Source: a virus. From it: a DNA stretch of 54,112 bases. The stretch spans positions 1 to 54,112 of IMG/VR virus record IMGVR_UViG_3300049008_000030. One strand, given 5' to 3'. Within the stretch, counting starts at the first letter, position 1. Every line of letters starts with the position of its first letter. The notes beneath the pieces were generated by a model. The model was not told the origin of the DNA, did no database searches, and saw only the letters and a list, made by a program, of their open reading frames with translations. This document shows positions 11,918 to 51,630 of this stretch, in pieces. The position numbers and the translations under genes were made by a program.

Positions 11918-14900
11918 ATGACCCCAGAATCACTACAACCCACACAAGGTTTTGCAAACACATCAAGCGGTAGTTTCGTAAATGTATCTAGTGATGGTTT
12001 TGCAAATACGTCAAGTGATGGTTTATTGCCTCCAGACTCTAATACTTCTTTGCTGGAAAATAAGATGAGAGGGGTTGCTACTGCTTCTGATGCTAAGAAG
12101 CATTTCCTAGATCCATCTTCTTCTATAGATCCTACGCTAACTTCACTCAAGTATCAGACTGTCGTAGATGGCGATACACTAAAGAATAAGTTAACTGGTG
12201 AAAAGAGTCGTATAACTCAGGGTGAGGAAGATACAGGATTTAGGTTTAATCCTTGGGAGGTCAAGCACGGGGACAAATTCGATGCTACTGCGGCTGCTAG
12301 GATACTTGACCAAAGGAAGGCTATTGCCAAAATTAATGGTTTACCTCTTGATTACATTCCTGATTCAGCGGTATATGGCAGAGGCGAAAACGCTAAGAGG
12401 GTATTCGGGGATCTACTTAAAGAGACAGGCGACTTCAATCTTGTAAAGACAGGTAAAATAGATATACACGATAGACCTGTAACAGAAATTTTTGCTCCTG
12501 GCTCTGATCAATCATTAGTGGCTCCTATGAATACAGAAGAGCTTAATGCTGATTACAACTCACGACACAATATAACAGGGCGAGGCATAAATGTACTCAA
12601 GAAAGCTGCTGAAAGAGAGGAAGCTACTAAGTACTCAGTTAGTGATGCTAACAGGGAAACACTGCTAGGTGGTGCAGTCAATCTTGTGGCTGGAGGAGCT
12701 GTTGCTGCCTCAGATCAGATATACAACATGGCTAAATCCCCTTTTGAGTTGCTAGGTCAGTTTACAGAACATGGTATTACCAACAAACAAAGAGAGCTGT
12801 CTGCTGCCTTAACTACCAAACAAGAAGCTGCTGGTAAAACAGGTACTACGTATACACCTACTGCTGAAGAACAAGCTATCCTTGAAACACCAGCACAGAC
12901 TTTCATGCGGGAAAATCTTAGACCTGTTCTTAATGGTGAGCGTAATATTTCTGCTAAAGATTTAATGGCAGGACTTAATACCGTAGATCCATTACAGCAA
13001 AGTATTCATGAGAAGCTACAGGAAACTGCTTTTGTAAAAGAAAATATTACAGATAAACTTACTGCGATGCAGGAAGGTAATAGAAGGCTTTATAACTCTG
13101 CTGGCTCAGATGAGTTATATAAAGAATCTAAAGGTCTTTATAACGACTCTGTTGAACCTACCTTTGTTGAAGGTGTGCAGAAGTTTAAGAAGGGTCATGT
13201 AGTTGATGGCTCCTTACAAATGGTTGATGCTATTGCTAATGCGGGAGCAGGTATCCTTAGAGTAGGAGCCAATAACAAGCAAGCGGTAGCCGAAGAAGCA
13301 GGTAAACAAATAATTAATTCCTTTGCGGCATCTAAGGCACTACTTGCAACAGCCCTTGGAATGTACACAAATACTGATTCAGAAATAACAGATAATTTTG
13401 TTAAAGAAAATGGTAGATACCCTGAAGGTAGGGAAGTTGATAACATCCATGCAGCCAGTTTTTTATCTGCAATGGCAGATTCCTATACTGATAAGTGGCT
13501 TACATCTAAACCAGGTATAGCCCTAGCTATACCCAGAGAATTTATAACTGAGGCAGGTCAAAACTTTCTTGAACAGGATGCAGCTAAACAGGGAGCATCT
13601 AAGATAGATCGGGGTGAAGTCTTTGCTAGTGGTACTATCGGTGCATTGGCAGCTGGTGGTCATTCGGTAATAACCAGCCCTGAAGCAGCTATCATAGAAG
13701 CTGCTCAGGGCGTAGGTAATATTGCTGGTGGCGCTATTTCAGGAGCTAAAAAGGCAGCTCCTACTATTCAGTGGGCTGCTCAAGCATTGGGTGACGCTGG
13801 TAGAGAGTACGGTAACGTACTACCTGATGGATTAGCAGAAGGAATGTCTGATGCTACCAAAGCTGGTTTAGCGAAACTTACTGGGGCTTTAACAGGTATG
13901 CCGACAGACTCTTTAGGGAGTGGTCTGAAAGCGGCTGGTTCATTAGCAGCTCATGCAACTAAAGAAGGCGCTAAAGCTGTTGGTGGTGCTGTAGGTGATT
14001 ACCTTGATTCAGCTTTTCCTATTTCTTCTCAAGCCATCAAGGACTTTAAGGCATCTAATCTAGTCCCAGATAAGATTAGTAATGCTGTAGATGCAGCTAA
14101 ACAAGAAGTTACAGATGCAGTTGATGAGGTAAATTCATCTACGGCAACACCTATGCCTATGGCTGATGTACTAAAGCAAGCCTCTGAAACAAAAGATCCT
14201 AGGCAGACGTTAAAAACGATGCTACAGACTGGAAACAGTCCTGCCGCTGATACTACCCCAGAAGATCGTAAAGCGTTTGTAGACCTGGCTACTGAGCATA
14301 ATACAGCGCTTGTTACGACAGCACTAGATATGGGTAAGCAGGACAAATCTGGTATGTCTGAAGCTGAACGCCAAACAGTCGTAGACAAGCAAGGAGAATT
14401 GCTTGCCGAGTTCAGAAAGAACAAAGAAACCATTGATGGTATCAAAGCTTTTAATCCAGAAGCAGATACTACGGATACTGACTTATCAATAGTAGCAAAA
14501 GCAACAACACCTGAACTAGCAAATCATCCTGATACGCTTCAAGCTATTGATCGTACTATTCGTAGTATGCGTCAACCTAATAAGGTTAGTATTGAGCAAG
14601 CAGAATCTTTACAAGCTAAAGCAACACTGACACCAGAACAGACTTCTGTAGTATCTGCTTTCATTGCAACCCAGACAGCAAAGAATGAACTTAAAAGTAT
14701 GTCCAAGGTTGGTGATGAAGTAATCTATGGTCAAAAGGCTGAGAATGGTAAGAAGGGCTTCCTTGGTATGGTAGAGCATCAAGCTATTATTGCTGATGCC
14801 TTGGATCAAAATAATATACCGGCTGCACAAAGTGCATTGGATGGATTCAAGTCATTTGCAGCTAGTCAGGCTAAGAAAGCAGCGAGTCTTACTGCCATGA

Positions 14901-17900
14901 GTGTAGCAGCAAAGGCAGAGAAATTCTCAGAGGTTAAGGCTCTCGACAAGCAGTTCAAAGAGGACTTCCCTACATTCCAACCGCTTAACAATCAAGCATC
15001 AACTGCTTTTTTAAACCTTGCTAATACTGTTGGTAAGGAAGCAGACATGCTAACTAACGCTGTAGCTGAAGCTGAGTTGCATATCAAGTTAGGTACTACA
15101 GAAGCTAAAGCTGTACCTGTTAATCAAGAAGCATCCATAATAACACCCGTAGGTACAGACAATGCAAAACTCACTAGCTCCTTGGATTCAAATACTACTC
15201 AAGCAAGCGGAACTGAACAAGGAAGTGATACCAGTATTGATACTGGATTAGAATCAGCTTTGGTTGTAGATCCAGTAATCAACAACACAACCGCAGAGCA
15301 GGTAACTACTGATACCAGTGGTAATGCTGAAGAAGAATCAATAACTGATCCTGTGGCTAAAGTAGCTGATGCAACTGAAGAGACTACAGCGGATACTACC
15401 TCAGAGGGCCTAGGTAAAGTTAGGTCTATTGCAGAAGCTATAGCCAAATACTACGGGCTACCTGAATTTAGTAACATATTCATAGGTGATCGAACAGCTC
15501 CATCAGGTAACAAATCACGGGCTTGGTACACACACGATACTGCTAATGGACATAGCCTTGGATTGTCTAGTGAGATAGTTAGCGCACTTTCATCACCAGA
15601 TGCAAGGCTACAAGCCGCTGCATTAGAAACTCTTCATCACGAACTAGGTCATCACGCAGCCGTGTCTCTGTACGCTAGTGCCTCACCTGAAGTTAGGGCA
15701 GCCGTAGATGCAGATTATGCTAAGTTTGTTGAGGAGTCCAAGACGCGTACACCAAGAGAGTCTATAGCTGCACGTAATACTATTATACGTGGTCAGGCTG
15801 TACGTGACAGGGTACGTGACCCATCACTGCCTCCTTTGACCAAGGAGCAGAATGACTACATTGCTGGCTATAGCATTGACTTCCAAGAGTGGTTAGCAGA
15901 TGAAGGTGCTAAGTATTTACTTGATCCCACTTCTATCGCTAAACTAAATCCACACACTCAAGGACTAATTCAGAAGATAGCTGCGTACTTACAAGAACTT
16001 ATCGGTAAGTTCTCTAAAGAATACGCTGTAGGTGGTGAGGGTGTAAAAGCTTTCTATAAAGAACTAGAGGATAGGCGTGTACTAGCTCGTATTAAAGAGT
16101 TATCTAAAACAAAGAATCTTACAAAGGCTCCTCCTTTTTTAATCGCTGTAATCGACTACATTGTTACTTCTAACACATCAAAAGATTATTCTTACAAACA
16201 GAACAATCATACCATTTCTGTTTTGGAAGCTTTACCTGATAAAGCCACTAACTTGGGTACACAGTCACTTGATAGCACTAGAAAGTTCTTAACAGGTAAG
16301 AAACTAAGTGACTACTACATAACCAAAGTACTCGATAAAGTTAGTAAGTACAGTGCGTTAATAACGACCCCTAATTTCTTCAGTACACTGAAAGATGCAG
16401 GTGTTAAAGAAGCACTCGGACTAACTCCAGAACAACTTAATGGACTAGCTGCGCTAACTACATTTGTAGATAAATTTGCTGAGACATTCAAAGAAGATAC
16501 CTTTACAGCTGACAGGGAACCGTTTTCAGAAGGTCTTAGCAGAAACCCTGCCTTCTATTTTATGAAGGAAAAGGGTAGAGATCCCTTTGATGAAAACTTT
16601 GTAAGTACTCTAGCAACGGTTGCTTATTCTTGGGTTGTTAATAATGCTAATAACCTTATTCAGCATAATGACGAGGGTATTAATAGGTTACTGGGTAGAG
16701 ACAGTAAGAGTAAAGTATCGGATCAAGAGCGTGAATTGTTAAGTGATAAACAGATCCTTAAGTCTGCTCTGATAACCAGCTTAGGTAAAGAGATTGTAAG
16801 TTCTTTGGGTCTTACCTTTAATACTAAAGCTGATGGTTCTGTTGAATCAAAGATGGTTGAAGCCTTGGGTATCTATGCAGTGAATACCTTGGATCACATG
16901 GGTATACTAAATAAGTCTGTGGCAATACACAAAAATATATTTCTTGCCATGAAGAATGGTAAACCTATTCCTGAAGTTAAAACACCTGCTACAGGTCAGA
17001 ATGCAATCTACTTCACAGGTGTGGCTACTACGGTTACACCTGTTAAGGATAAAAGCTATAGTAATACTGAGCTTAGTGAAAAGGTACAGAAGCTTGTAGA
17101 TGACAACCGTACGAGTAAAGGCTTGCTTACTGAGTTATTTGATTACAAACAACAAAGAGCGTTGCCCTTGCTTGTAGCCCCTACACTTAAGGATGTTCCT
17201 AAGCGTATAAAACGAGGTATTAAAAGGATACCTGAAAGGGTACGTAAAGCCCTGCATAAGTACAACTCTAATGCGTTTACCATTAACATGGGTAATCATA
17301 CTGTTTTGGATTTCTTGGAGCGTGAGCAGCAATTACGCATCTTTAAATACAATGAAAATTTAGAGGGTGTACATGATGTAAACATTAAATCTGTACAAGG
17401 AACCAATAGAACTGCTAAGAATGAGCTTGAAGCTTATCATCAATTAGTTGAACACTTGAAGCTACAGCCAGAGGGTATGTCTACACCCATGTACTTCATG
17501 TCTTCAGTCTGGAAGAGTGGTAGAGCAGGTATGGAAGGTTTGATTAATCCTCAAGCCAGTAAATTCTTTAGGCACATGATAGGTATGGCATCTTGGGAAT
17601 CTACGATTGATAGCCCTGAGAAGCTAGAGCTATTCAAGATAGCCGTTGCTGAAGCACTTGGATCAAAGGTAGATAGACAATCAAATGAAACCTCACTAGA
17701 AGCCTTTGATAGGCTACGCAATCAACCAGAAATACGAGATGGTGTTGCCAGCATTAAGTATCTTAATTCTGGTGTAGAGTTCTCTGCTGAACAGAAGCTT
17801 GCTGCACAGGAAGATATTCTAGCAGCGATTGAGAAAGGTGGTAGCGAGATGTACACGCTGGAAGCTTTAACAGCTCTTGCTACTTATTCAGAGACAGAAT

Positions 17901-20900
17901 CATTTACTACTAGAATGACTAAAGAGGTTGATGGTGTCACTAACGGGGTCATTATTGGTTTGATTCAGTTGGGAGGTTATAGACCTAAAGAGTTATTAGA
18001 GTTCTTAAAAGCTGGTGGTTTATCTGAAGATCCTAATTTTGTCTATGGTGAATGGGTAGCTAAAAACGGTAGTATGGATAACTACCAACGCATAGCAGCT
18101 ACGCTGGTTAAGTATATGACTACCTTTCGTAAAGAGCTGGATGCGAAAGACAAGAGCGGTATTGCTAAGGAGTTTACTACTAAAGAACGTGGGGACAGGG
18201 ATACTTTAGATGGTATAGAGTTCTTCATAGGTGACTTAGGGACTGCGAATGAGCTGACTAAAGCAGCCAGAGACTTAGCTAAAAATCCTGTGATGATTAC
18301 CAACTTCGGTTCAGCTATGAAGAATGTTGTCGAAGGTCTTGGTATGGGTACAGTTGAGAACTTTTATAGTATGCTTGAGGATGCTAGGGATAATCAAGTA
18401 GCTCTTGATAAAATATCAAAACAACTAAACAAAATTCTTAAGCTTGAAATACCACATAAAATCTTAAAGGCTTCGTATCTTCTTGATGTAGAGGATACTA
18501 ACGAAAATGAGGCTCTTAAGTTTAAACTTAGTAAAAACGAAACAGAAAAGTTCCAGAAGCTTGTAGCTACTTCTATTGGTTCAGGTATGAGCCATAGTAT
18601 TACAGAACATTTCCAACCATTCATTGATAAGAGAAAAGGATTAAACAATGCCATGACCTTGGTTCATGCTGCATTTATGATTAAGTACGATGCTGCGTAT
18701 AAAGCAGCTAGAGATCTTAAGGGATCTAATCTATCCAAAGAAGAAGTGAATGCTTTGGTTAAAACATTAGAACCCTCTATGGCTTCCTTTGATCATGCTA
18801 TGTCTGATGGAGAAATGGACACTGAACTGCTTGTAGCTTCTAATGAGAGTAAGACAGTTCTTATACCAGACCCAAAAAGACCGGGGGAATTTATCCCTGA
18901 TCCAGCATACACTGTGCAAGTAAACGCTAAGAAGAATCTACCACATGGGCCTAAGAGTGTTACTGCTCATGGTTCAGTAAGCTACTTTGGTTTCCCTGGC
19001 GTGGGTTCTGTTATCAAAGCTATCCATAGTTCTGATGGTGCTGTGCAATATAAACTGATGGAAACGTCTTCGGTATTGAATGTCCATGACGCTGATGTAT
19101 CAGGTATAGATGGTGCTATGGTTATGGCACAACGTCAGAACCTAGCCTTCAAAGAAATGAATGAAGATTACTCTATGCGAGCTTCTATACAGAAGTCATT
19201 GCTTAGAGCTATGAAAGAGCTTACCCCTGCTGAAGTAAAGCAGGTTGAGGCTTTACTACAGATAACTAATGATAAAGCTGAGGGGTTTCTTGGACATGAC
19301 TTTGTTAGGGCAGAAGGTGAAGGTAAGAGTAGAAAGACTGTAGCTAAGTACAAGACTATCGATGCGTTTGTTACTGAGTTTACCGACACAACCAAGATAG
19401 ACTTAGCAGCTAAGAAAGCATTGCTGGCTAGTATTAAGACTTGGGTACAGTACAATTTAAATCATGGAGGATATGTAGTCGATGAAGATTCCGAAGCTTT
19501 TTTTGCAACATTAGAAGAGATGGAAAGTTCCTTAGAACAGGAAGATGCAGCTATCAATGCTATGATGAAAGAAGAAATTGCTCAGATGAAGAAGGCAGAA
19601 AGGAATCGTATTAGCGGTAAAATTAAATCTTCTGCTACAGAAGATATAGATATAGCTAACTTTGTTGCTGATTCCTTGCCTATCACTATATCTGCTTCAA
19701 CAGTGAACTCAATCTTTGATGAGTTGGGTAAGCTTGATAATGTAACAGATCCTACAAGCCATACAGAGAATCTAAGAACTGTCTTGAATCAGTCTATTAG
19801 ACAAGTACTGAATCCAATGGAGTTACTGGTTCGTAAGCTAGGTCAGACTAATAGCGGTGTACTGTCGAAAGGTAAGATTTACCTTAATCTTGGTAACGCT
19901 GCTAGGTTACATACTACTGATCAGTCTGCTCAAGAGGTCTATGTCCATGAGCTTGTTCATGCGGTAACTGCGGCTGCACTCGCATCAAACTACTGGTTAC
20001 GTAAACAAGCCAGAAGCTTGTATGAGAAAGTACAAGACCAAATTACTCCAGAGAGTTTCTTGGATTATGATGGGCAAGGTAATATCATTGTTCCTGCGGG
20101 TAGTACAGAGGAGCAGACTATAGCCAAGGCTAAAGCTGTCTATGATCATATCTTTGATAACAACGATATTGCTAAGCTTAGTTATACGAACCCGATCACT
20201 AATGAAATAGTGCCAATTCAGTACAGCAATGGCTTACTTGAGTTTGTAGCGATGGGTACTACCAATGCTAAGTTCATTAAGATATTGGCAGGCATTAATA
20301 CCAATAAGTCTAAACGTGATCCACTAACCTATGCAGATAGAGTGTATAACGTATTCATCGGCGCAATTAATTCTGTGCTAAGTTTGATTAACAAAACCAA
20401 AGATCCAGCAGCGAATGTTGCTTTGATGAAACTGATGCACAAGTTGGCTAATGCCAACCAAGTTAAATCCAATATCATCATGCGTAAGTTTGAAGAGAAT
20501 GGTCACTTGGAAGATATTGTAAACTCTAAGCTGTATAAGGCATTGGCTTATTCTGCTTTAACCAGTAGTCAACTACTCAAGGCTAGAAAGAATAAAACAC
20601 TCTCTGCTGTGGGTAATATGATTGGTTTGAGTCAGGATACTAGCTTTGAAGCCTATAAGAAGGTAGCCGGTAAGTTAGCTCGTAGACATGGTAATTCGCA
20701 TAGAACTATTCTGTCTCAGTTAGTGACTGAAGCTGAAGGTATTACTGCTATATCGTCTGCGTACCTGCACATGCTGTCTAAGTCTAATATGCTTATTGAT
20801 CAACTTAGACGTTTGCAAGCACAGAGTGTGACTAATCAAATACTGGGTAGCTTTATTGTAGGTATGCCTTCTAAGAGTGAGGGTATAGCGATTACCAAGG

Positions 20901-23239
20901 TAATGCTTAAGACTGACATGAGTAGCTTGATTGATCATGGATATGCTTGGGATAAGATGTTTGGGCTACTTAAAAGTAAATCCAAGTTGGCTACAGAAAT
21001 TAAATCTGTAGAACAACAGTTGCAAGCAGCAGCACCTAGTAACTTTGACTACTATAAAACACAGGCTGCAACCTTGGGTTACATGATGGTTAATGGTCAA
21101 CCTCTTAAGTGGGGTACAAAGATTAACGCTGTTAACATTGCACACTTAGGTGGTACAGGTAAAACAATAGAGGGTGACTTAGCAGCTATTGAAAAGTATG
21201 TTGATATTCTTGCTTCGCTACATGCTATCAAGTACTCAGATAAAGATCATGTTAAAGACTTTGTAACTGTAGCTGAGAGAGAGTTTGCTAAGGATAAAGA
21301 TAACAATGGGGTGATGTTAAGTTACTTGGTTCATAAAGACTTGAAAGCCAGAGCCTTAGAAGAGTCTTTTGAAGGTCAGAAAGAGCTGATGTTTAAGGGT
21401 TATACCAAGGAGATTTATAATCCAAGAGTTAGTATTGAGGTGGCCCCGGATAATGCGTATCTTGACCTCAAAGTTGATAAGCTTGGTAATGTTATATCAA
21501 CTGAGACAAAAATGAAGGCTAAGGGGTATATCAAAGTGAGGGGTGCTATGTCTAAAGACCCTACTGATCTAAACAAAGAACCTATGAGTTTGTATGTCAA
21601 TAAAGATGGTGATACAGCTACCTTTAATAAGATGGGAGTATCGTTGACTAGCAACAGACGTAAAGGCCATGATCTAGGTGCTGGTTACTCTAGTATGGGT
21701 GTGATTAATCCTGCTTTACTTGGTTCGTGGGATACTGCCCATGCTACGTCAAAAGGACAGAAGATACTTGCTAGTGCTGACTATGCTGATTTATCTAAGA
21801 TAGATAACAATAATCTATTGGTTCCTGTTGAGAACGCACAGCATGAGATTGTGGGTTATCGGTATTTAATGAATGAAGCTACTAAGGATGACCTATTAGA
21901 TAAGGAAAATGGTTTTGCTAAAGTCTTAGGGGCTATGGAAGGGAGTATTGTAGATAAGCGGAACTCTAAGCAGATTAACAACGAAGTCGTTAATTTAATG
22001 CGCGAAGATTTCTTGGCTAACTATGAGAAAGATCCAGACTTGTTTATTAAGTTTAGTTCCCATTCACAAAATGCCGATGATCGTGAGCTGTATGCCATGC
22101 TACCTGCTGATATGCGTAAGGAGATTAAAAGGGTTTGGGGGAGTGATGTGATGTATGTCCGAGCCAATATGTTTAGAGCCATTTTCGGTTTCCGTAAGTT
22201 TACGGTTACTGAAGGCTCTAAGGAGGAGGACGAGGCGAATGCTATGCACGAAGGTGTGCTTACCAATTTTAGGATTGCTCTTAGAGATAAGCTTAGAACG
22301 CCTACAGCTAAGAAAGGTGAGATCGCTTTACAAGAAATTGCAAAGGAAGTGAAGGATGCTATTGTTATTAAGTTGGGTGGTACGTTGTATAACAACATCA
22401 TTAGTAATAACTGGTTGTTATGGGTTAAGGGTGTAGGTCGGTTTTCTATCGTGAAAGATCAAGCGATGTTTCTTGATGCTGCTAGGCAGTACCATAAAGA
22501 TGTAGCCAAGCTGATGGAGCTTGAGAGGTCTGTTAGGATTAACCCTAAGCTACAGAATAGTGCTAATGTGAAGGCTAAGATCAATAGTCTTAAAGATCAC
22601 ATGGCTCATAATCCTATTTCCTTCCTGATGGACTCTGGTGTGTCTCAGACAATCATTGAGGATGTTGATACGGATGAGAGCCAGTACACTTACAAGGGCA
22701 TGCTTGAAGAGAAGTTAGCTCCATTAGTTGCAAGAGTACCTAAACCACTAAAGACGCTGGCAAGTATTGCGTACATGAACCATGATACTAAGCTGTATAA
22801 ATTCATGCGTGAAGCCACACAGTTAAGTGATTTGGTAGCTAGGGCTACACTGCATAAGCATAATATAGAAAAGAAGGGTATGAGTGCTGTAGACTCTATT
22901 AATGATATTAAAGATACCTTTATTGACTATGCTGCACCGACCAGTAAGCAGATACAGTATCTTAATGATACTAACTTCTTGTCGTTCACTAAGTTCTTTA
23001 TACGTTCACAGAAGATCATCTATCAGACCTATGCTCATGCACCTGCAAGAGCATTAAGTCTGCTTGGTTTTGAAGATGTGTTTGGTGAGTTATCTACTAT
23101 CAATGATTCAAATATCATTAATACTAGCCTGTTGGGTAGGATCAATAACCCAGTAGCTATGGCAACTGATTTAGTGGTTCCACATACCTTTGGGTTAATT
23201 CCTACAGGTACAGGAGGGGGTTCTTATATACCAGAGTAA
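11918..23239 (+). CDS. Virion-encapsidated DNA-dependent RNA polymerase (N4 gp50-like)
   Basis: A 3773-residue T7-family single-subunit RNA polymerase packaged in the virion (N4: 3500). Visible motifs: substrate-binding Arg (SGRAGMEGL, R1869), palm Asp (KEVDGVTNG, D2005), fingers O-helix (KNPVMITNFGSAMK, K2122 and F2130) and second palm Asp (NVHDAD, D2391). Spacings are 136, 117, 8 and 261, versus 135, 111, 8 and 273 in N4 mini-vRNAP, so alignment is secure. At the ribose-selecting Tyr position it has Phe. Two gluzincin-type sites flank the core: HELGH (1241-1245) with E1324, and HELVH (2677-2681) with E2775. The N-terminus carries short repeats and a possibly nuclease-like segment (67-200). 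The C-terminal 1000 residues are unassigned. Expected role: injected with DNA, transcribes early genes from hairpin promoters. Confidence 0.93.
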   Translation: MTPESLQPTQGFANTSSGSFVNVSSDGFANTSSDGLLPPDSNTSLLENKMRGVATASDAKKHFLDPSSSIDPTLTSLKYQTVVDGDTLKNKLTGEKSRITQGEEDTGFRFNPWEVKHGDKFDATAAARILDQRKAIAKINGLPLDYIPDSAVYGRGENAKRVFGDLLKETGDFNLVKTGKIDIHDRPVTEIFAPGSDQSLVAPMNTEELNADYNSRHNITGRGINVLKKAAEREEATKYSVSDANRETLLGGAVNLVAGGAVAASDQIYNMAKSPFELLGQFTEHGITNKQRELSAALTTKQEAAGKTGTTYTPTAEEQAILETPAQTFMRENLRPVLNGERNISAKDLMAGLNTVDPLQQSIHEKLQETAFVKENITDKLTAMQEGNRRLYNSAGSDELYKESKGLYNDSVEPTFVEGVQKFKKGHVVDGSLQMVDAIANAGAGILRVGANNKQAVAEEAGKQIINSFAASKALLATALGMYTNTDSEITDNFVKENGRYPEGREVDNIHAASFLSAMADSYTDKWLTSKPGIALAIPREFITEAGQNFLEQDAAKQGASKIDRGEVFASGTIGALAAGGHSVITSPEAAIIEAAQGVGNIAGGAISGAKKAAPTIQWAAQALGDAGREYGNVLPDGLAEGMSDATKAGLAKLTGALTGMPTDSLGSGLKAAGSLAAHATKEGAKAVGGAVGDYLDSAFPISSQAIKDFKASNLVPDKISNAVDAAKQEVTDAVDEVNSSTATPMPMADVLKQASETKDPRQTLKTMLQTGNSPAADTTPEDRKAFVDLATEHNTALVTTALDMGKQDKSGMSEAERQTVVDKQGELLAEFRKNKETIDGIKAFNPEADTTDTDLSIVAKATTPELANHPDTLQAIDRTIRSMRQPNKVSIEQAESLQAKATLTPEQTSVVSAFIATQTAKNELKSMSKVGDEVIYGQKAENGKKGFLGMVEHQAIIADALDQNNIPAAQSALDGFKSFAASQAKKAASLTAMSVAAKAEKFSEVKALDKQFKEDFPTFQPLNNQASTAFLNLANTVGKEADMLTNAVAEAELHIKLGTTEAKAVPVNQEASIITPVGTDNAKLTSSLDSNTTQASGTEQGSDTSIDTGLESALVVDPVINNTTAEQVTTDTSGNAEEESITDPVAKVADATEETTADTTSEGLGKVRSIAEAIAKYYGLPEFSNIFIGDRTAPSGNKSRAWYTHDTANGHSLGLSSEIVSALSSPDARLQAAALETLHHELGHHAAVSLYASASPEVRAAVDADYAKFVEESKTRTPRESIAARNTIIRGQAVRDRVRDPSLPPLTKEQNDYIAGYSIDFQEWLADEGAKYLLDPTSIAKLNPHTQGLIQKIAAYLQELIGKFSKEYAVGGEGVKAFYKELEDRRVLARIKELSKTKNLTKAPPFLIAVIDYIVTSNTSKDYSYKQNNHTISVLEALPDKATNLGTQSLDSTRKFLTGKKLSDYYITKVLDKVSKYSALITTPNFFSTLKDAGVKEALGLTPEQLNGLAALTTFVDKFAETFKEDTFTADREPFSEGLSRNPAFYFMKEKGRDPFDENFVSTLATVAYSWVVNNANNLIQHNDEGINRLLGRDSKSKVSDQERELLSDKQILKSALITSLGKEIVSSLGLTFNTKADGSVESKMVEALGIYAVNTLDHMGILNKSVAIHKNIFLAMKNGKPIPEVKTPATGQNAIYFTGVATTVTPVKDKSYSNTELSEKVQKLVDDNRTSKGLLTELFDYKQQRALPLLVAPTLKDVPKRIKRGIKRIPERVRKALHKYNSNAFTINMGNHTVLDFLEREQQLRIFKYNENLEGVHDVNIKSVQGTNRTAKNELEAYHQLVEHLKLQPEGMSTPMYFMSSVWKSGRAGMEGLINPQASKFFRHMIGMASWESTIDSPEKLELFKIAVAEALGSKVDRQSNETSLEAFDRLRNQPEIRDGVASIKYLNSGVEFSAEQKLAAQEDILAAIEKGGSEMYTLEALTALATYSETESFTTRMTKEVDGVTNGVIIGLIQLGGYRPKELLEFLKAGGLSEDPNFVYGEWVAKNGSMDNYQRIAATLVKYMTTFRKELDAKDKSGIAKEFTTKERGDRDTLDGIEFFIGDLGTANELTKAARDLAKNPVMITNFGSAMKNVVEGLGMGTVENFYSMLEDARDNQVALDKISKQLNKILKLEIPHKILKASYLLDVEDTNENEALKFKLSKNETEKFQKLVATSIGSGMSHSITEHFQPFIDKRKGLNNAMTLVHAAFMIKYDAAYKAARDLKGSNLSKEEVNALVKTLEPSMASFDHAMSDGEMDTELLVASNESKTVLIPDPKRPGEFIPDPAYTVQVNAKKNLPHGPKSVTAHGSVSYFGFPGVGSVIKAIHSSDGAVQYKLMETSSVLNVHDADVSGIDGAMVMAQRQNLAFKEMNEDYSMRASIQKSLLRAMKELTPAEVKQVEALLQITNDKAEGFLGHDFVRAEGEGKSRKTVAKYKTIDAFVTEFTDTTKIDLAAKKALLASIKTWVQYNLNHGGYVVDEDSEAFFATLEEMESSLEQEDAAINAMMKEEIAQMKKAERNRISGKIKSSATEDIDIANFVADSLPITISASTVNSIFDELGKLDNVTDPTSHTENLRTVLNQSIRQVLNPMELLVRKLGQTNSGVLSKGKIYLNLGNAARLHTTDQSAQEVYVHELVHAVTAAALASNYWLRKQARSLYEKVQDQITPESFLDYDGQGNIIVPAGSTEEQTIAKAKAVYDHIFDNNDIAKLSYTNPITNEIVPIQYSNGLLEFVAMGTTNAKFIKILAGINTNKSKRDPLTYADRVYNVFIGAINSVLSLINKTKDPAANVALMKLMHKLANANQVKSNIIMRKFEENGHLEDIVNSKLYKALAYSALTSSQLLKARKNKTLSAVGNMIGLSQDTSFEAYKKVAGKLARRHGNSHRTILSQLVTEAEGITAISSAYLHMLSKSNMLIDQLRRLQAQSVTNQILGSFIVGMPSKSEGIAITKVMLKTDMSSLIDHGYAWDKMFGLLKSKSKLATEIKSVEQQLQAAAPSNFDYYKTQAATLGYMMVNGQPLKWGTKINAVNIAHLGGTGKTIEGDLAAIEKYVDILASLHAIKYSDKDHVKDFVTVAEREFAKDKDNNGVMLSYLVHKDLKARALEESFEGQKELMFKGYTKEIYNPRVSIEVAPDNAYLDLKVDKLGNVISTETKMKAKGYIKVRGAMSKDPTDLNKEPMSLYVNKDGDTATFNKMGVSLTSNRRKGHDLGAGYSSMGVINPALLGSWDTAHATSKGQKILASADYADLSKIDNNNLLVPVENAQHEIVGYRYLMNEATKDDLLDKENGFAKVLGAMEGSIVDKRNSKQINNEVVNLMREDFLANYEKDPDLFIKFSSHSQNADDRELYAMLPADMRKEIKRVWGSDVMYVRANMFRAIFGFRKFTVTEGSKEEDEANAMHEGVLTNFRIALRDKLRTPTAKKGEIALQEIAKEVKDAIVIKLGGTLYNNIISNNWLLWVKGVGRFSIVKDQAMFLDAARQYHKDVAKLMELERSVRINPKLQNSANVKAKINSLKDHMAHNPISFLMDSGVSQTIIEDVDTDESQYTYKGMLEEKLAPLVARVPKPLKTLASIAYMNHDTKLYKFMREATQLSDLVARATLHKHNIEKKGMSAVDSINDIKDTFIDYAAPTSKQIQYLNDTNFLSFTKFFIRSQKIIYQTYAHAPARALSLLGFEDVFGELSTINDSNIINTSLLGRINNPVAMATDLVVPHTFGLIPTGTGGGSYIPE
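11948..12019 (+). repeat. Three tandem 24-bp units encoding 8-residue repeats
   Basis: Within the vRNAP N-terminus, residues 11-34 read GFANTSSG, SFVNVSSD, GFANTSSD. The units are similar in DNA, suggesting a recent slippage duplication in a disordered leader. Confidence 0.75.
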
Positions 23240-24406: not shown

Positions 24407-24427
24407 AAATATTCCTCTTCTAAACGG

Positions 24428-24501
24428 TACACCCAACAAGAGTCGAACTTGTATCACCTGTCATCACGGACCTGCGTTTTATCCTATTAAACTATGGGTA
24501 T
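24428..24501 (-). tRNA. tRNA or tRNA-like gene with abnormal anticodon arm
   Basis: A 74-nt cloverleaf of canonical proportions: 7-bp acceptor stem (ATACCCA/TGGGTGT), D stem GTTT/AAAC, perfect T stem ACAAG/CTTGT with loop TTCGACT, discriminator A. The anticodon arm is poor: CAGGT versus GACAG gives only about three pairs, and loop CCGTGAT puts C rather than T before a nominal GTG (His) triplet. The 3' end continues CCG, not CCA. It may be a degenerate tRNA, an altered tRNA, or a tRNA-like RNA; isotype is not assigned. Confidence 0.65.
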
Positions 24502-29292: not shown

Positions 29293-31452
29293 TTAAGCGG
29301 CTACAGATAAAGCTTTCTTTGAGATTGCTTTTGCTGCAGATACTAAGATTGTGGACACAATTTCTGCATCATCTAATTTGTTTGGTAGTTTGTTGTTAAG
29401 AGCCAATAAGTTATTACGTATTGAATCCAATCCCATACCAGAGTCTACAAGAACTAAAGCATACTTGATTAACTGGTTGCTTCTATTACCTTCCCCGGTA
29501 TTGTTAACGAACCAGCGCTCTAAATTGCTTAGAGACTGTAGATCCAGTACACGTTGTTTCTGTGCATCACTCTTACTTGTTTTAGGGATAAACAATAGAG
29601 CATCCAGTAACTCACCATCGTTGTACCAGTAGTTACCTTTATGGGTTAGCCACTTTCTGCTTCGTTGGTTGGTTGCTGTATCTACTTTGAATGGGAGCCA
29701 ATCAAAGATATTTGCCATGAAGCTTTTGAACTCATTGCCGTCTAGGGCTAACTTATGCGATAGCGGTAGAATTATTCTAAAGCGATTCTCATTGGGTGTA
29801 TGGCGTTTAGTGGTGTATATTAAGAACTTGTAGTCTTGTAACAGCAATTTAGCTGTGTCTACAGAGACTTCGCCATCAACATCAATGACCACCATGTTAA
29901 ATCCAGGTATTACATTATCCTCTAATCTATAGTTACCTATGAAGTTATGGTTCGCCCAGTGTAAATTAGGGTGGTTAGTCATCTGGTGAAGTTTATCAAA
30001 GGGAGCCAAAGCTACTTCGTAGTTTTCAGCAAGTTGTGTACTATGCGACAGAATCATCTCATTCAAATTGGTTTGCTTCAAAGATTCTCCTTTCATAAAT
30101 TCAATACCTTCAATATAGTGTTTCTTAATGATGATATTGTTCTTGTAACCATAGGCTATTGCCAAGGTCATTAACTCTCTTTTCTGAGCTTCGCTACCTT
30201 TATAAAAAGGTAAGTCTTCCACTAAGTCTACGTGAGTTACTTCACGGTTTATTTCGGCAATGTACTTAGCCAGTTTTACATAGTTACGATCTCTAGTTAG
30301 TATTTTTGAGAACGCTTTACCTGAGTCTTCTACCAGCTTAATAGCGTTGTAGAGTATCTCTTCGGTAATCTCAAAGCTACCGGCAATAAAGGCATACGTA
30401 CCTGCAAGCTTTAAGGCTTTAAAGTACCTATGACTTAACTCCGCTTTTTGTATTTCTTCATGTTCTGGAAATGTTTCTGCTAGCTTTTCACAGTGCATTT
30501 TGTAGCTTAGTAGTTCAATACTAACTTCCCTGGACATAAGCGTAATCTTGTTAAAGTTTACTTTATCTGCAAGGTTGCCCAGCATATCAGACAAGTCAAC
30601 TAAGTCTTGTATGTCTGATTTGTCAGTAAGTATGTCGTATACTTGTTCTGGTGTAAGCTCTGCAACATTAGGCATCTTTCTACCAAAGCCAAATAAGCAG
30701 CGTCTAGCGTAGCCAGTGTCTAGCATGGAATAGAACTCTTCTTCTATCTTGCTGCCATTAAATAACTTAGAAGGTGTACCGAACAGCATAAGATTGGTAG
30801 GGGTTCTACCATCAATCTCTTCACTTCTAATACTTTCAGCAGTATTTTTAGTAAGCTTTTGTTTTACTTTACCTAAGTCAAATAATTCTAAGAAGACCGT
30901 AAAGGCTTCTGTATTGCCTAGCAAGTTACTACCTAGCTCATCCATCTCAAAGTTTACTGAGCCAGCATTAGCCATTAGTATCTTATGGCGCATTTGTTTG
31001 ATGGCAGGGGAAGATCCACTATCGAATGAGAACGCAAGCTCACCTGCTCTTTCAAACTCTTTTTGTACTTTGAGCAATTCTTCATCTGGATCGGTAGACT
31101 TCTTGTTAGATCTTTTTACAGCTAGTTTTGCTAGGTTCTCTTCGCTGACTAAAGGGAAGGTACTGCTTAAGAATGTCTCTCTGAATTTGTGCAGTACTTG
31201 CTCTTCTACGATAGTGGTTGCATGACCTTTACCAAAACCGCTAGTAGCTAGATTTATGGCATACAGACTTACTGGGATGATGCCTCTATCCGGTGTCTTA
31301 ACCGCACACCGCATCATAGAAGCCACTTTAGTAAAGTAGTATGCAGTTAAAACTCTAAAAAATAATGGGTCTTCACTTTGTGTTTTTTTGCATAAAACTC
31401 TTACAAGTTTTTCTGCTGGTTCAAAGTAACTCACCCCAGCTAAGTCTTTCAT
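29293..31452 (-). CDS. Primase-helicase-like replication protein (N4 gp43/gp44 class)
   Basis: A 719-residue protein. The N-terminal half has a P-loop-like NLATSGFGKGHATT (about residues 67-80) and NFEMDELGSNLL, as in helicase-loading ATPase domains of phage primases. The C-terminal half contains an archaeo-eukaryotic primase-like patch: VVIDVDGE (Asp-x-Asp metal site, about 520), then IYTTKRHTPNENRFRIILPL. It sits directly upstream of the ATPase and SSB genes as in N4. It would lay primers and perhaps unwind DNA; which half is active is inferred. Confidence 0.7.
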   Translation of the reverse strand: MKDLAGVSYFEPAEKLVRVLCKKTQSEDPLFFRVLTAYYFTKVASMMRCAVKTPDRGIIPVSLYAINLATSGFGKGHATTIVEEQVLHKFRETFLSSTFPLVSEENLAKLAVKRSNKKSTDPDEELLKVQKEFERAGELAFSFDSGSSPAIKQMRHKILMANAGSVNFEMDELGSNLLGNTEAFTVFLELFDLGKVKQKLTKNTAESIRSEEIDGRTPTNLMLFGTPSKLFNGSKIEEEFYSMLDTGYARRCLFGFGRKMPNVAELTPEQVYDILTDKSDIQDLVDLSDMLGNLADKVNFNKITLMSREVSIELLSYKMHCEKLAETFPEHEEIQKAELSHRYFKALKLAGTYAFIAGSFEITEEILYNAIKLVEDSGKAFSKILTRDRNYVKLAKYIAEINREVTHVDLVEDLPFYKGSEAQKRELMTLAIAYGYKNNIIIKKHYIEGIEFMKGESLKQTNLNEMILSHSTQLAENYEVALAPFDKLHQMTNHPNLHWANHNFIGNYRLEDNVIPGFNMVVIDVDGEVSVDTAKLLLQDYKFLIYTTKRHTPNENRFRIILPLSHKLALDGNEFKSFMANIFDWLPFKVDTATNQRSRKWLTHKGNYWYNDGELLDALLFIPKTSKSDAQKQRVLDLQSLSNLERWFVNNTGEGNRSNQLIKYALVLVDSGMGLDSIRNNLLALNNKLPNKLDDAEIVSTILVSAAKAISKKALSVAA

Positions 31453-33824: not shown

Positions 33825-34685
33825 TTACAGTTGGTGTCTGTACTGTGACCACCCTTTACTGTTTCCTGATAGTCTATGGCCTGAAATAGAGAGGGCTGTT
33901 ACACCTTTTGTACTGAAGCCACTTATAGGTGTCAGTACACTTTCAAAGGGTGAAGCGTGTATGGGTGTTGAGGTAGCTAATTTATCAAAGATTGCGAAAG
34001 CTTTACCTATCGAGCTGTTTGTGTTTCTGTAAGACACCTGAGCTATGCAGCTTACTGATACTTGCTTGGCACTATAACTGCTTAAACCGTTACCATAGAT
34101 TAGCTCACCAGTAGAGGATCTATTGTGTTCTACGTAGGGCGTATGCCATTCACCTTCAGCAAGCTCTTCTCTATCGCAGTTATCTAAAGCAATCCTCAGT
34201 TTCTTAGCGACTGCTTGGATCTCAGGTTGAGCATCTTTGTGGTCACGTAACGCTAGGAAGTTATCAAAGCTGGTAGAGGTCACGATGGTCTTCATGTAGG
34301 AGATGTACTCAAGGTTTCTATTGGCAAGCTGCTTATGTACGCCTACAGCGTTAAGCAGGGTTGCACCTAATAGATTGATATGTCCACCGATGATCCATAA
34401 GGACTTAGCTAGAAAGCGTCTTACACCGGTAAGTTCTTCCTTGGCTTGCATACCTGATTGGTTCTTGCCCCAGTAAATAGGAACAAACATATTCTTACGA
34501 ATATTACTGATCATGGTTTTGACTGGGATAGCTCTGCTAGATGCTGCATTACGGGAAAACTCCCGATGTGTCATCATTTCTGCATGAATGATCCGAGGGT
34601 ACTCCAGCTCCAGTGTTGTCACTGGCATACCCTTATGGCTAGATGCTGCAATTACTTTTACTGTGGTGCTGTTATCAATATTCAT
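33825..34685 (-). CDS. thyX: ThyX-like flavin-dependent thymidylate synthase
   Basis: A 286-residue protein, a little longer than usual ThyX (about 220-260). The segment MMTHREFSRNAASSRAIP (about residues 37-54) corresponds to the ThyX motif RHRxxSxNExSxRY in diverged form: the first Arg is replaced (Thr-His-Arg-Glu-Phe-Ser), and Asn is kept but Glu is Ala. A second conserved Arg/His-rich part ends at RHQL. It would make dTMP from dUMP using FADH2, next to dUTPase and RNR genes. The motif divergence leaves some doubt about activity. Leader has the TCCCCGTATAAAATTA repeat. Confidence 0.75.
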   Translation of the reverse strand: MNIDNSTTVKVIAASSHKGMPVTTLELEYPRIIHAEMMTHREFSRNAASSRAIPVKTMISNIRKNMFVPIYWGKNQSGMQAKEELTGVRRFLAKSLWIIGGHINLLGATLLNAVGVHKQLANRNLEYISYMKTIVTSTSFDNFLALRDHKDAQPEIQAVAKKLRIALDNCDREELAEGEWHTPYVEHNRSSTGELIYGNGLSSYSAKQVSVSCIAQVSYRNTNSSIGKAFAIFDKLATSTPIHASPFESVLTPISGFSTKGVTALSISGHRLSGNSKGWSQYRHQL

Positions 34686-34688
34686 CTT

Positions 34689-34970
34689 CTATTGTCCCCG
34701 TATAAAATTAATGAGTGGTCTAGGAAATACTTTAGTAATCTTTATATTAGCTGCATGTAGAGCTATTTTTAGCCCTTCTATCTCATGCTCTAATTCGTGT
34801 AAATGTTTTAGTAGCGCTTGGTTCCTTTCGTCTTTAGCGTGATTGTTAAGCGTTAATATATTCTTTGACCTGGTGGTATAATCAAGTTCATGCTCTACCA
34901 GTTTCAGTGCTTTAGCCAATTCATTGCATCGTATCTTATGGCGATAGATGAATGCGGTTATCCTATTCAT
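34689..34970 (-). CDS. Hypothetical coiled-coil protein (93 residues)
   Basis: Almost entirely helical with heptad-like Leu/Ala spacing (about residues 15-80) and basic ends; overlaps the end of the polymerase gene by 8 bp. Possibly a short structural or regulatory helper; not recognised. Confidence 0.55.
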   Translation of the reverse strand: MNRITAFIYRHKIRCNELAKALKLVEHELDYTTRSKNILTLNNHAKDERNQALLKHLHELEHEIEGLKIALHAANIKITKVFPRPLINFIRGQ

Positions 34971-36096
34971 TTATTAACTCCTCTAAATATTTTTTATGGG
35001 CTGCTCTACCGATTGCAGTTATTTCTGCTTGGGTAGAGCGGTTAGGTAGTTTTGCTGATACTTCCCATGAGGGGTAGAAGATCTCTGCGGTAGCACTGAT
35101 CTTTACGATGTCATGTCGTATCTCTGGTAAGCCTGTCCAAGACATGCACTCAATAAGATTATTGTTGAACCATTCAATACATTCAGCGTTGTCTGCTACT
35201 GAGAAGTACTGACTGTCATGGATCGCACAGATAGGTAGAATGTCTAGCGCATAGGGAGAACCCCATATACGCCTTTGAAATGCTACTGCTGCTCTGCTAT
35301 TAAGCATCCCATAACTTTGTCCTAAAGCATTACCTGCTGTCCTAGATTCAGCTTTAGCTTCATAGGGTACTGAGCTACTGGTTAAGATTGATTGAGCCAA
35401 GATAGGTGTTCGTAGTCTTAGTCCGAAGGCTAGTTTTACGTAGCCGTTCTTAGTAGCTTCGATTAATTTGGTTTGTACCCACTCATCGGATACCTTATAA
35501 AGCTCGTGGTAGTTTCTTTCTATTTCTAGTGCTTCTAGTTTTTTGAAACCAACATTAGCAATTAAGCCATGATAGGTCCCCCCGTAGGTTAATAAAAAAG
35601 TTGGTGCTTTTGATGCTTGTCTTAGCTTAGGAAATAAATCTGCTATTGAGTTTATGCTTTCAACGGTATCTATGATTCCAGCTAGTTGATCCCTAAAGTA
35701 AGCAAACGCTCTTAGGCTGTGACCATCATAGCCATCGGTATACACCTTTAGTTTGTTAGGGTCTTTCGTAGTAAGAGCAGATATCTTATCTTCCAAGGAA
35801 TCAAAATCTGCTCCTATCATTACTCTACCTTTGGGGGACTTGAAGCATGACTTTATTAACTTGCCATAGGTAGATCCACTAGGTAAGTTAGTTAAATTGG
35901 GATTAGAGCTAGATTGCCTACCCGATTTCGTTCCTGTTATATTGAAGTTACCATGAAGATAGTAATTACCATCTTCCTTTAGTACGCTATTCTCTTTGAG
36001 GGCTTTAATGAATGTACCGAGTATCTTAGCTGCCTCTGCATATTTAATGAGTGCTTTAAGTACTCTAGCTGCTTGTATGGCTTCATCTCTGGTCAT
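34963..36096 (-). CDS. Family A DNA polymerase, C-terminal polymerase piece
   Basis: A 377-residue piece holding the polymerase domain: template/primer motif TGTKSGRQSSSNPNLTNLPS (about 54-73), motif A MIGADFDSLEDKISAL (D97, E102), motif B RQASKAPTFLLTYGG (K163, Y171), motif C CAIHDSQYF (H293, D294). The Glu after the motif C Asp is replaced by Ser. It has its own SD (GAGGAA) and start, so it may be made as a separate subunit; together with the 517-residue N-terminal piece it equals a complete N4 gp39-type polymerase. The pieces are separated by 230 bp containing an inverted-repeat element. Confidence 0.87.
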   Translation of the reverse strand: MTRDEAIQAARVLKALIKYAEAAKILGTFIKALKENSVLKEDGNYYLHGNFNITGTKSGRQSSSNPNLTNLPSGSTYGKLIKSCFKSPKGRVMIGADFDSLEDKISALTTKDPNKLKVYTDGYDGHSLRAFAYFRDQLAGIIDTVESINSIADLFPKLRQASKAPTFLLTYGGTYHGLIANVGFKKLEALEIERNYHELYKVSDEWVQTKLIEATKNGYVKLAFGLRLRTPILAQSILTSSSVPYEAKAESRTAGNALGQSYGMLNSRAAVAFQRRIWGSPYALDILPICAIHDSQYFSVADNAECIEWFNNNLIECMSWTGLPEIRHDIVKISATAEIFYPSWEVSAKLPNRSTQAEITAIGRAAHKKYLEELINE

Positions 36097-36129
36097 GTGT
36101 ATAGTTCCTCATAATTATTCTCCTCATCT

Positions 36130-36320
36130 GTTAGGTTGCACATTGAAAACATCTGGTTACTGTCCCATTAGACGCACCGCGCGATACGTTTAAAGTCGAT
36201 TTTCTATTCCGCTTTTGAGTGCTGCAAGACTCTCAAAACATTAGCTTTTTGGCAGTGCTTGCAACTCCCCAAAAAGCACGGTCAATTTCCTTCGCAAATG
36301 TTTTCAATGTGCAACCTAAC
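36130..36320 (-). mobile_element. 191-bp element with perfect 23-bp inverted ends between DNA polymerase halves
   Basis: The ends 36130-36152 and 36298-36320 are perfect inverted repeats (GTTAGGTTGCACATTG outermost). A TCATC direct repeat flanks it, offset by one base. Inside are two stem-loops: TTTTGAG...CTCAAAA (36213-36238, 12-nt loop) and GCTTTTTGG...CCAAAAAGC (36244-36277, 16-nt loop). Their loops hold complementary TGCAAG and CTTGCA. No ORF. Candidates: a MITE-like insertion, a structured RNA, or an atypical intron. Group I core elements were not found. Confidence 0.6.
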
Positions 36321-36326
36321 TCATCA

Positions 36327-38662: not shown

Positions 38663-39139
38663 TTAGTGTGTTCCTGAGTGTCCGAAGCCACCACGCCCGT
38701 TATCTACAAAGTTATCTACAAGCTCAAACTCTGCTTTGATAACAGGTAGGAAAACCATTTGAGCAATACGATCACCTAACTCAATTTTGAAGGGTTCGCC
38801 TGTTTGGTTTCTGTTCCAGCAAGATATGAATATTTGCTGTTGGTAGTCTGAATCTATTAGCCCTATCAGATTACCTAAGACGATTCCGTTCTTATGACCT
38901 AAGCCAGAACGAGGTAGTAAGGTTGCTGCCATTGTGTCAGGCATATTTATAGCAATACCTGTTGGAATTATCATTGTCTCGCCAGGATAAATCTCGGTGT
39001 AGACCCGGTTACTTTCAAACATGGCTCTAAGATCAATTCCTGCTGCGCCTACTGTTGCATAATCAGGTAGTGGAAACATACCTTTTGCTGTTGTGTTACT
39101 CAGGCGTTGGTCTAAGATTTGTAGCTGTACTCTATTCAT
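38663..39139 (-). CDS. dut: dUTP diphosphatase
   Basis: A 158-residue trimeric-type dUTPase from the internal ATG ([10 protein letters not shown]); the longer frame to 39235 runs through the terminator at 39155. All five motifs are visible: [38 protein letters not shown] and the C-terminal GRGGFGHSG arm. It hydrolyses dUTP to dUMP for ThyX and keeps uracil out of phage DNA. No strong SD is seen before the ATG; the leader has the TCCGTATAAAA motif. Confidence 0.93.
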
Positions 39140-39154
39140 GGGGATATCCGTATA

Positions 39155-39182
39155 AAAAAGTCCCCTAGAGTTATCTAGGGGA
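39155..39182 (-). terminator. Rho-independent terminator after the reductase genes
   Basis: TCCCCTAGA / GTTA / TCTAGGGGA, a perfect 9-bp stem, is followed on the minus strand by ACTTTTTT. It separates nrdJ transcription from the dUTPase gene, which probably has its own start site. Confidence 0.85.
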
Positions 39183-39212
39183 TAGGGAGGCGTATGAGCT
39201 ACGCTAAAATAA

Positions 39213-42786: not shown

Positions 42787-42941
42787 TATTTATCCTTATT
42801 CAGTCTTTCATAAATCCAGCGACAATCTTCATGTGAAATACTGAAGCCGTGTTTTTTACATACCTCTATTACTTCTTCAATAAAAGAATCTATTGCAGGT
42901 ACTTCTATATGTTTTTGTTTTTTTCCACTCCAGCGTTTCAT
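42786..42941 (-). CDS. Small conserved phage protein (HGFSISHED family)
   Basis: A 51-residue protein starting MKRWSGKKQKHIEVPAIDSF, with EEVIEVCKKHGFSISHED in the middle. The Cys-x-Lys-His-Gly-Phe-Ser-Ile-Ser-His-Glu-Asp pattern recurs in small phage proteins of unknown function. Overlaps the integrase gene by 4 bp (ATGA), so it is translated with it. Confidence 0.65.
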   Translation of the reverse strand: MKRWSGKKQKHIEVPAIDSFIEEVIEVCKKHGFSISHEDCRWIYERLNKDK

Positions 42942-43954: not shown

Positions 43955-43967
43955 GTTACTTTCCTCT

Positions 43968-49849: not shown

Positions 49850-50909
49850 CTCAAATGTTAAATCAAGACGTTACTCTTGACCCTTAAATATATTATAAAT
49901 AGCAGCATTTCCTACATTAAACTTAGCTGAGATCTCTACACCGTTAAGACCTTCAGCATGAAGCTGAAGTATCTCTTCTACATCGGTATGAGATAACCTT
50001 ATGTTAGGATGTTTACCGTAATTGTCTCTGTTGGTTGCGAAACCTACGTTAACTTTTGCAGAAACAAACTGACACGTTGTTGGGCTGTATATGTGAGGAT
50101 GTATATTAAGTTGTTCAGATAGAATATCTTTATCTATATGTAGTCCCTTAACCCATCCATTAGCTAGACCCCACTCAATAAATGCTTGAGGGTTATCACG
50201 CCATTCTTCACATACAGTCACACCCATCCCCATATACCATTGATACCCTTGACCATTTTCGTTGTAACACCTATCCATCATGCCTCTGTAGGCTTTATAT
50301 AATGGGTGAGTATTACTTGCTTTGCGGTAGCCGTGCTTTGTTTTTCTAGCAAGTTCTACACAACCACATGAAGGTGTCTCAGGATCTAGGGATTGGTACT
50401 TCTTAGTTTGATGTTTGATCGTATTGGCTCTAGCAGTATGTGGTTTTCCACAGTCGCACTGATATACCCAAAACGCATTTCCTATAGCATCTTTATGTAT
50501 GAACTCTTTGGCTACTAATGACCCAAACCGCTCGTTGGTTATATCTACTATAGGTCTTTTTGCTCTGGTTTTTGCTATTTTCATTGGTTTTCCTTATTAA
50601 TCAATACAATGTAATTATACACTGAGTTGATGTGTTAGGAAAGCTACTATTTATATTTAAGTCTCTGATTTTCATCAGAGTATCGGACTATATCTTCACC
50701 CTCTTTTCAGTAGGGGCAAGGCACTTCGGATCTCACTTGAGTATCCTACGAACATTATTGACCAGCAATACTGGCTTCTCGTTCTAGTCTCTGAACCTTC
50801 AAGAATATTACTACTCTTGCTTGGCTGCTGATTAGCATAGGAGTTACCCCTAAGCCTTCCAGCAATTCACCTTGTTTTCTTCTCACCCTCTCGGATGCGT
50901 GACGCAGTT
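49850..50909 (-). ncRNA. Group I intron interrupting RNAP2
   Basis: A 1060-nt intron with full core: AATTGCTGG, AATCAGCAGCCAAGC, GTTCAGAGACTA (R) and GAAGATATAGTCC (S, 50684-50697), followed by P9 CTCTGAT/GAAA/ATCAGAG (50663-50680). P1: exon GUAGCGU pairs with intron GCGUCAC with a U-G at the cut (after 50910). The 3' end is ...TTTGAG. Removal restores Val-Ala-Leu-His-Ser-Val-Asp. The HNH gene lies 3' of P9. The region 50585-50907 is intron core, not a gene. Confidence 0.93.
49871..50584 (-). CDS. HNH-type homing endonuclease in RNAP2 intron
   Basis: A 237-residue protein with an N-terminal zinc-finger-like part (VYQCDCG and PSCGC, about 43-75), a central RGMMDRCYNENGQGY...GVTVCEEW region and LHIDKDIL...YSPTTCQFV typical of intron-borne HNH-like nucleases. 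The C-terminal HTH (about 200-236) would give DNA specificity. It ends 20 bp before the 3' splice site. Frame is intact. Confidence 0.85.
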   Translation of the reverse strand: MKIAKTRAKRPIVDITNERFGSLVAKEFIHKDAIGNAFWVYQCDCGKPHTARANTIKHQTKKYQSLDPETPSCGCVELARKTKHGYRKASNTHPLYKAYRGMMDRCYNENGQGYQWYMGMGVTVCEEWRDNPQAFIEWGLANGWVKGLHIDKDILSEQLNIHPHIYSPTTCQFVSAKVNVGFATNRDNYGKHPNIRLSHTDVEEILQLHAEGLNGVEISAKFNVGNAAIYNIFKGQE

Positions 50910-51630
50910 ACGCTACGTTTGCTATAAGTGGTATGTTGTATGTACTTGGCTCATTTATCTCTGTTACGTAGGTGAAGGTAGCCTTGTTTAGCTCGGCTAC
51001 CTCAATCTTCTTATACACTTCTACCTTTACAGGTACATACGCTGTATGCCCATCAGGCAATGTCCAAACATGAACAAAAGTATCTGGGTCCCAACATTTC
51101 AGTATGTCAGACATCATCTCCATAGGTCCCGGACACTCTTTCTCTAGCGTTGCATAGAAGGCAGCAAGCTCTGTAGTATCCTCACCGAAGACATTCTTAG
51201 GCTCTTGTTTAGACCCATAGAACACTGTCATTACAGGTGGTTTTATACCATCTCTGGTATATCCACCTAGGCTCAATAGATTCATGGTATCAGTGACTTT
51301 GTTATAGAAGTCCTCCCGTTTGCCTGTATTTATTAAGTTGGTATTCTTGGCTGTAGTCCTACAACCCGTTAGGCAAGCCATGAGCTGTAGACCTGATTGC
51401 GTGGCATCAAGACCTACCATATAGCCTGTAGCTACGCCCATTTCAGCATCATACTTGGCTCGAATAGCCTTTAGATACAGATAAGGATCATCTGCATCTA
51501 GTGACAATTCTTCAAGGTTTGCTTCATTGTCTTTTACCCACTGGATACGTTCATCCCAGGTTAGCTTGTCTAATCCGTAGCAATTTGCTATGTCGATTAG
51601 TATGTATTCATACCCTGTAAATTTCTGCAC
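50910..51630 (-). CDS. RNAP2 5' exon (N4 gp16-like RNA polymerase subunit)
   Basis: Starts at GTG (SD CAAGGAG) one base after the RNAP1 stop, so the two subunits are coupled. It carries the palm motif MVGLDATQSGLQLMACLTG (D75) and O-helix KPPVMTVFYGSK (K130, Y138). Here the ribose-selecting Tyr is present, unlike in the vRNAP. With the 3' exon the protein is 330 residues, against 404 in N4. It forms the middle-gene RNA polymerase with RNAP1. Confidence 0.92.

Follow-up and report, generated by a model that had tools for sequence, protein, structure and literature searches.

Tyr/Phe exchange at the N4 Tyr678 position of Schitoviridae virion RNA polymerases and its association with His at the T7 His784 position

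Exchange of Tyr639 for Phe leaves T7 RNA polymerase with near-normal activity while allowing it to use dNTPs as well. A second residue, His784, sits in the motif HSQDG, 28 residues ahead of the motif C Asp. Both Y639 and H784 have roles in 2'-group selection; T7 Y639F uses 2'-F and 2'-NH2 NTPs and the double mutant Y639F/H784A is relaxed further (PMC4551944). Syn5 RNA polymerase responds like T7, its Y564F exchange relaxing 2' selectivity (PMC4538805). For the virion RNA polymerase (vRNAP) of phage N4 the published catalytic residues are R424, K670, Y678, D559 and D951 (PMC2784036). Ceyssens et al. 2010 mention a "Y678F substitution" for the N4-like Pseudomonas phages LUZ7, LIT1 and PEV2 and report their vRNAPs as cysteine-free (PMC3715699), so the natural substitution was already known. 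The direction of selectivity proposed there is opposite to the behaviour of the T7 mutants.

The vRNAP described here is encoded by a 54,112-base linear virus record in IMG/VR, analysed over its whole length and referred to as the window. Its fold and catalytic motifs are shared with the N4 enzyme (mini-vRNAP, PDB 2po4 and 3c2p), but N4 combines Tyr678 with Gly at the T7 H784 position whereas the window combines Phe with His. Migulavirinae-type vRNAPs (LUZ7, LIT1 and PEV2) are also N4 gp50-like and reportedly cysteine-free, with Phe at N4 Y678 and His at T7 H784. They nevertheless carry the motif KxPLTAMMFGS with HAxDS where the window has KNPVMITNFGS with HSSDG, and are only about 26% identical to the window enzyme, which the best trees put among enzymes with Tyr. 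The laboratory mutant T7 Y639F has the same residue pair, Phe639 and His784; the window enzyme is natural, very distant from it and presumably of the hairpin-promoter class.

The window vRNAP and its phage

The vRNAP is a giant single ORF (Table 1) that contains no cysteine, as is typical of N4-type enzymes (family range about 3000–3700 aa). Its core matched the N4 mini-vRNAP by sequence in a phmmer search of solved structures (E 1e-17), and Pfam vRNAP_dom_2 matched aa 1776–1888 at E 3.3e-5, slightly below the curated cut-off. Modelled with AF2 (pLDDT 84.5, pTM 0.84), the core had its best PDB match in the N4 mini-vRNAP (E 8e-32, TM about 0.70), with mitochondrial and T7 RNAPs ranking next, and is thus predicted to have the mini-vRNAP fold. 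The N4-type catalytic set of R424, D559, K670 and D951 was complete, being represented by R1869, D2005, K2122 and D2391. The window most likely encodes an N4-type vRNAP with its catalytic function intact, which would transcribe early genes after injection.

Table 1. Coordinates of the vRNAP, its motif residues and two further genes in the window
Feature	Position	Strand	Observation
vRNAP, N4 gp50-like	11918..23239	+	ORF; 3,773 aa
Mini-vRNAP-like catalytic core, aa 1452-2560	16271..19597	+	AF2 model
Arg1869, T/DxxGR motif (WKSGR), N4 R424	17522..17524	+	Invariant, 81/81 relatives
Asp2005, motif A catalytic Asp (EVDGVTNG), N4 D559	17930..17932	+	Invariant in the 81-relative set
Motif B / O helix, R2118-x3-K2122-x7-F2130-G-S	18269..18313	+	R2118 and K2122 invariant, 81/81; helix 664-678 of the model
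Phe2130, codon TTC, at N4 Tyr678 / T7 Tyr639	18305..18307	+	Alignment; column F 58 / Y 57 in 115 enzymes
His2370 (IHSSDG), at T7 His784	19025..19027	+	H in 58/58 Phe enzymes
Asp2391, motif C catalytic Asp (VHDAD), N4 D951	19088..19090	+	80/81 relatives
RNR	39835-41877	-	
RNAP2 (N4 gp16-like) exon 1, motif B KPPVMTVFYGS	50908..51630	-	Tyr, within-phage control; PHROG 2051, E 6e-89; Pfam RNA_pol

Within this ORF, positions 18281–18325 (+) encode KNPVMITNFGSAMKN. Motif B aligned by phmmer without gaps between the window (ardlaKNPVMITNFGS) and the N4 mini-vRNAP crystal chain (krgiaKNPLTITIYGS), the paired segments being ARDLAKNPVMITNFGS and KRGIAKNPLTITIYGS, respectively. Alignment with the G7C/N4 group reproduced the published N4 numbering at R424, D559, R666, K670, Y678 and D951. 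Accordingly, K2122 corresponds to N4 K670 and T7 K631, and F2130 to N4 Y678 and T7 Y639, in agreement with the original prediction, and motif B of the window holds Phe where Tyr678 is found in N4. It had further been claimed that Tyr is retained in the phage's own RNAP2, and the motif B of RNAP2 bears this out.

The phage belongs to the Schitoviridae on the basis of its N4-like portal, head, RNAP1 and RNAP2 genes (PHROGs 1216, 1357, 2166 and 2051), with a portal up to 56% identical to those of Pylas and Pollock. The RNAP2 gene is split (49578–51630, -): motif B lies in exon 1 and motif C (HDAY) in exon 2 (49578–49850), and a group I intron (RF00028, 74.6 bits, 50663–50922) and an HNH endonuclease ORF (49871–50584) were found between them. 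The family A DNA polymerase is present as two ORFs on the minus strand, an exonuclease part (36327–37880) and a polymerase part (34963–36096), separated by a gap of about 230 bases; the search of this region (34963–37880) for an intron family gave no Rfam match. A dNTP-supply block on the same strand (39213–41877, 38663–39235 and 33825–34685) comprises the RNR large subunit, an overlapping second RNR-like ORF, a dUTPase and a thymidylate synthase-like gene. The minus strand also encodes a tyrosine recombinase (42938–43975, PF00589, E 3e-20), N4-like phages being usually regarded as strictly lytic, and a MoxR-VWA-like pair (45594–46709 and 47205–48230) in which a DUF2201/VWA metallopeptidase-like protein, labelled HNH endonuclease by PHROG, lies near an ATPase. 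A tRNA-His gene (anticodon GTG, 24426–24501, -) is located just beyond the vRNAP gene.

Distribution and history of Tyr and Phe

Relatives were drawn from annotated phages and from IMG/VR and GTDB contigs, those in IMG/VR being reached by alignment queries as a single-sequence query gave no match. In a first set of 81 relatives, the aligned site was Phe in 42 and Tyr in 39. Among 115 non-redundant vRNAPs, window included, 58 had Phe and 57 Tyr with no third residue. This ratio is no estimate of prevalence, since sampling started from the window and its matches and Phe was a requirement of one pattern scan. As Phe occurs in 58 of 115 vRNAPs, Tyr678 is not family-defining. The isolated phages LUZ7, LIT1, Littlefix and phCDa are among the Phe carriers, and for LUZ7 and LIT1 the residue was confirmed by our own alignment. 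In the favoured reading, Schitoviridae vRNAPs have a Tyr/Phe switch at this position, with Phe2130 as one of its two normal states.

The residue alignment across Schitoviridae vRNAPs contradicts the rarity of Phe that the original prediction implied, and a unique change was rejected, Phe being present in about half of the relatives examined. Specificity of the change to the injected enzyme, as claimed, held within the phage, where RNAP2 has Tyr, but not across the family, nor in a marine lineage of T7-like single-subunit RNAPs. In the latter, a DNA-pattern scan identified 21 contigs with Phe in a T7-type motif B (KRIVMTKPFGMNGY...YIHSIDAS), so that Phe also occurs naturally at this position outside injected enzymes. 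These marine enzymes (contigs L271–L303) have the conserved motif HSIDAS and thus retain the His784 equivalent; they are PF00940 enzymes of about 795 aa, about 30% identical to pelagiphage RNAPs, and not vRNAPs. Two compared members of the lineage were 80% identical.

Motif B columns were omitted from all trees, and the H784 segment also from the last two. Ten Phe/Tyr changes were obtained on the 115-row tree, at least five of them forced by supported branches, and ten (9–10 in bootstraps), again with at least five forced, on a 53-row tree under a mixture model. Phe and Tyr have switched repeatedly, 5–10 times on the best trees. Most Phe enzymes fall in a single clade with Tyr members nested within it. 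The window groups with KxPLMxxxYG-type Tyr enzymes, together with a few further Phe enzymes (L100, L103 and L180), and its nearest relatives are only 27–30% identical. A supported branch around the main Phe clade excludes the window on the mixture-model tree. In an AU test under a simple model, on the 115-row LG tree, placement of the window in the main Phe clade was not rejected (p 0.69) and a better tree was found there. A separate origin of the window's Phe is thus favoured but not proven.

Association of Phe with His at the T7 His784 position

His was present at the T7 H784 position in all 58 Phe enzymes as compared to 24 of 56 Tyr enzymes. The full count for the 57 Tyr enzymes was H 24, Q 25, G 4 and one each of L, S and T, with no data for one; Phe without His was not found among the 115 non-redundant vRNAPs. 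The window, with F2130 and H2370, has the T7 Y639F-like combination of Phe at 639 and His at 784. The N4-group vRNAPs of N4 (locus L105) and G7C (locus L013) have Gly (IGTGD) at this position, which leaves the best-studied vRNAP without the second 2'-group residue.

The dependence of the two traits was evaluated on the tree with a likelihood test of correlated evolution, which gave an LR of 30.7 after better optimisation (34.7 in the first fit). In 63 data sets simulated under independence the LR reached a maximum of 14.0, and none attained 30.7. Of 1,521 simulations with many Phe tips, none combined a complete lack of Phe/non-His with 20 or more Tyr/non-His. The Phe-His association holds on the tree. 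All core columns were scanned for residues that are almost fixed when the enzyme has Phe but less frequent when it has Tyr. Apart from 2130, the highest-ranking columns were 2374 (Ser) and 2370 (His), both being within the T7 784–788 segment; Ser2374 was found in 95% of the Phe enzymes and in 16% of those with Tyr, the window having Gly. Independent-pair sign tests of Phe with His had 4–5 usable pairs, too small a number for significance. When eight sister pairs chosen by hand were compared, a cruder approach, column 2304 came top at 7:0 and His2370 scored 5:0; as other columns rank first, that comparison alone does not single out His2370. Searches covering open-licence papers returned no paper on the Phe-His coupling, which appears to be unreported and is the part of the analysis worth keeping.

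Substrate selectivity and alternative explanations

Based on T7 Y639F and Syn5 Y564F, relaxed rNTP/dNTP selectivity is a fair prediction for the window vRNAP. Having a natural T7 Y639F-like pocket, the enzyme would probably discriminate less well against dNTPs in vitro. Loss of the Tyr hydroxyl would make the 2'-OH check less strict, as it does in T7 Y639F, while His2370, retained whenever the hydroxyl is absent, would face the same pocket if the geometry is as we infer. The strict co-occurrence of Phe and His suggests that the 2'-group check is partly kept. Cellular rNTP pools far exceed dNTP pools, and the argument for near-neutrality leans on this general knowledge. With rNTPs in such excess the product in cells would stay ordinary RNA, and for this reason the switch would be near-neutral and could flip several times. 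Selection against loss of both gate elements would in turn explain why Phe without His is unseen. Taken whole, a Tyr/Phe switch with a weakened 2'-OH check, His2370 kept, ordinary RNA in vivo and near-neutrality is our best explanation, and we hold it with moderate confidence. A point against it is that T7 Y639F keeps His784 yet stays relaxed, so that His by itself might not bring selectivity back. In the open-licence literature, no biochemical work on a natural Phe vRNAP was found.

Phe enzymes might instead have fully compensated by rebuilding the pocket through the His784 equivalent, the HSxDS loop and other changes, in which case rNTP selection would equal that of N4 and Phe and Tyr would be equivalent solutions. 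The lack of Phe without His, the enrichment of Ser2374 in Phe enzymes, and the recurrence of reversible switches with no loss of motif residues are in line with this. The window itself, however, has Gly at 2374, and T7 Y639F with His784 still takes deoxy substrates. It also takes 2'-modified ones (PMC4551944). Full compensation is regarded as less likely than the best explanation. An artefact, that is a sequencing error or a misalignment of motif B, would find some room in that one base, T in place of A at 18306, makes the difference between Phe and Tyr and that this phage is represented by one contig only. It is scarcely credible given an alignment that is gapless across the invariant R, K and G and a partner His that is present in the window. 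Recurrence of Phe at the column in 57 other non-redundant enzymes, isolated phages included, likewise makes chance or an error at the Phe2130 codon very unlikely.

Selection of Phe to let the injected enzyme produce mixed RNA/DNA transcripts or primers, with genome replication as one conceivable use, is very improbable. The relaxed 2' selectivity of T7 Y639F and Syn5 Y564F (PMC4551944, PMC4538805) speaks for it, and loose support comes from a report, cited in PMC2784036, that N4 DNA replication requires N4 vRNAP; the RNR, second RNR-like ORF, dUTPase and thymidylate synthase-like gene of the phage could also raise dNTPs. The vRNAP, however, works first, ahead of any phage-made dNTPs, the phage has its own primase gene (29293–31452, PHROG 2135), close Tyr and Phe relatives share the same gene type, and nothing specific was found in support. 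That Phe/His vRNAPs act in vivo as promiscuous RNA/DNA polymerases, with dNMPs in early transcripts or mixed primers for the replisome and the switch marking the users, is held to be highly improbable.

Phe2130 is real and correctly read, ordinary within its family and already noted, and looks like a tolerated natural variant rather than the mark of a unique enzyme. The 2'-group gate of single-subunit RNA polymerases, known mainly through laboratory mutants, has here been swapped several times in nature. The Tyr/His, Tyr/Gln, Tyr/Gly and Phe/His enzymes form a natural panel in which the role of His784 in keeping a Phe enzyme acceptable is directly testable, and the Phe/His vRNAPs are natural candidates for synthesis of 2'-modified RNA on single-stranded hairpin-promoter templates.
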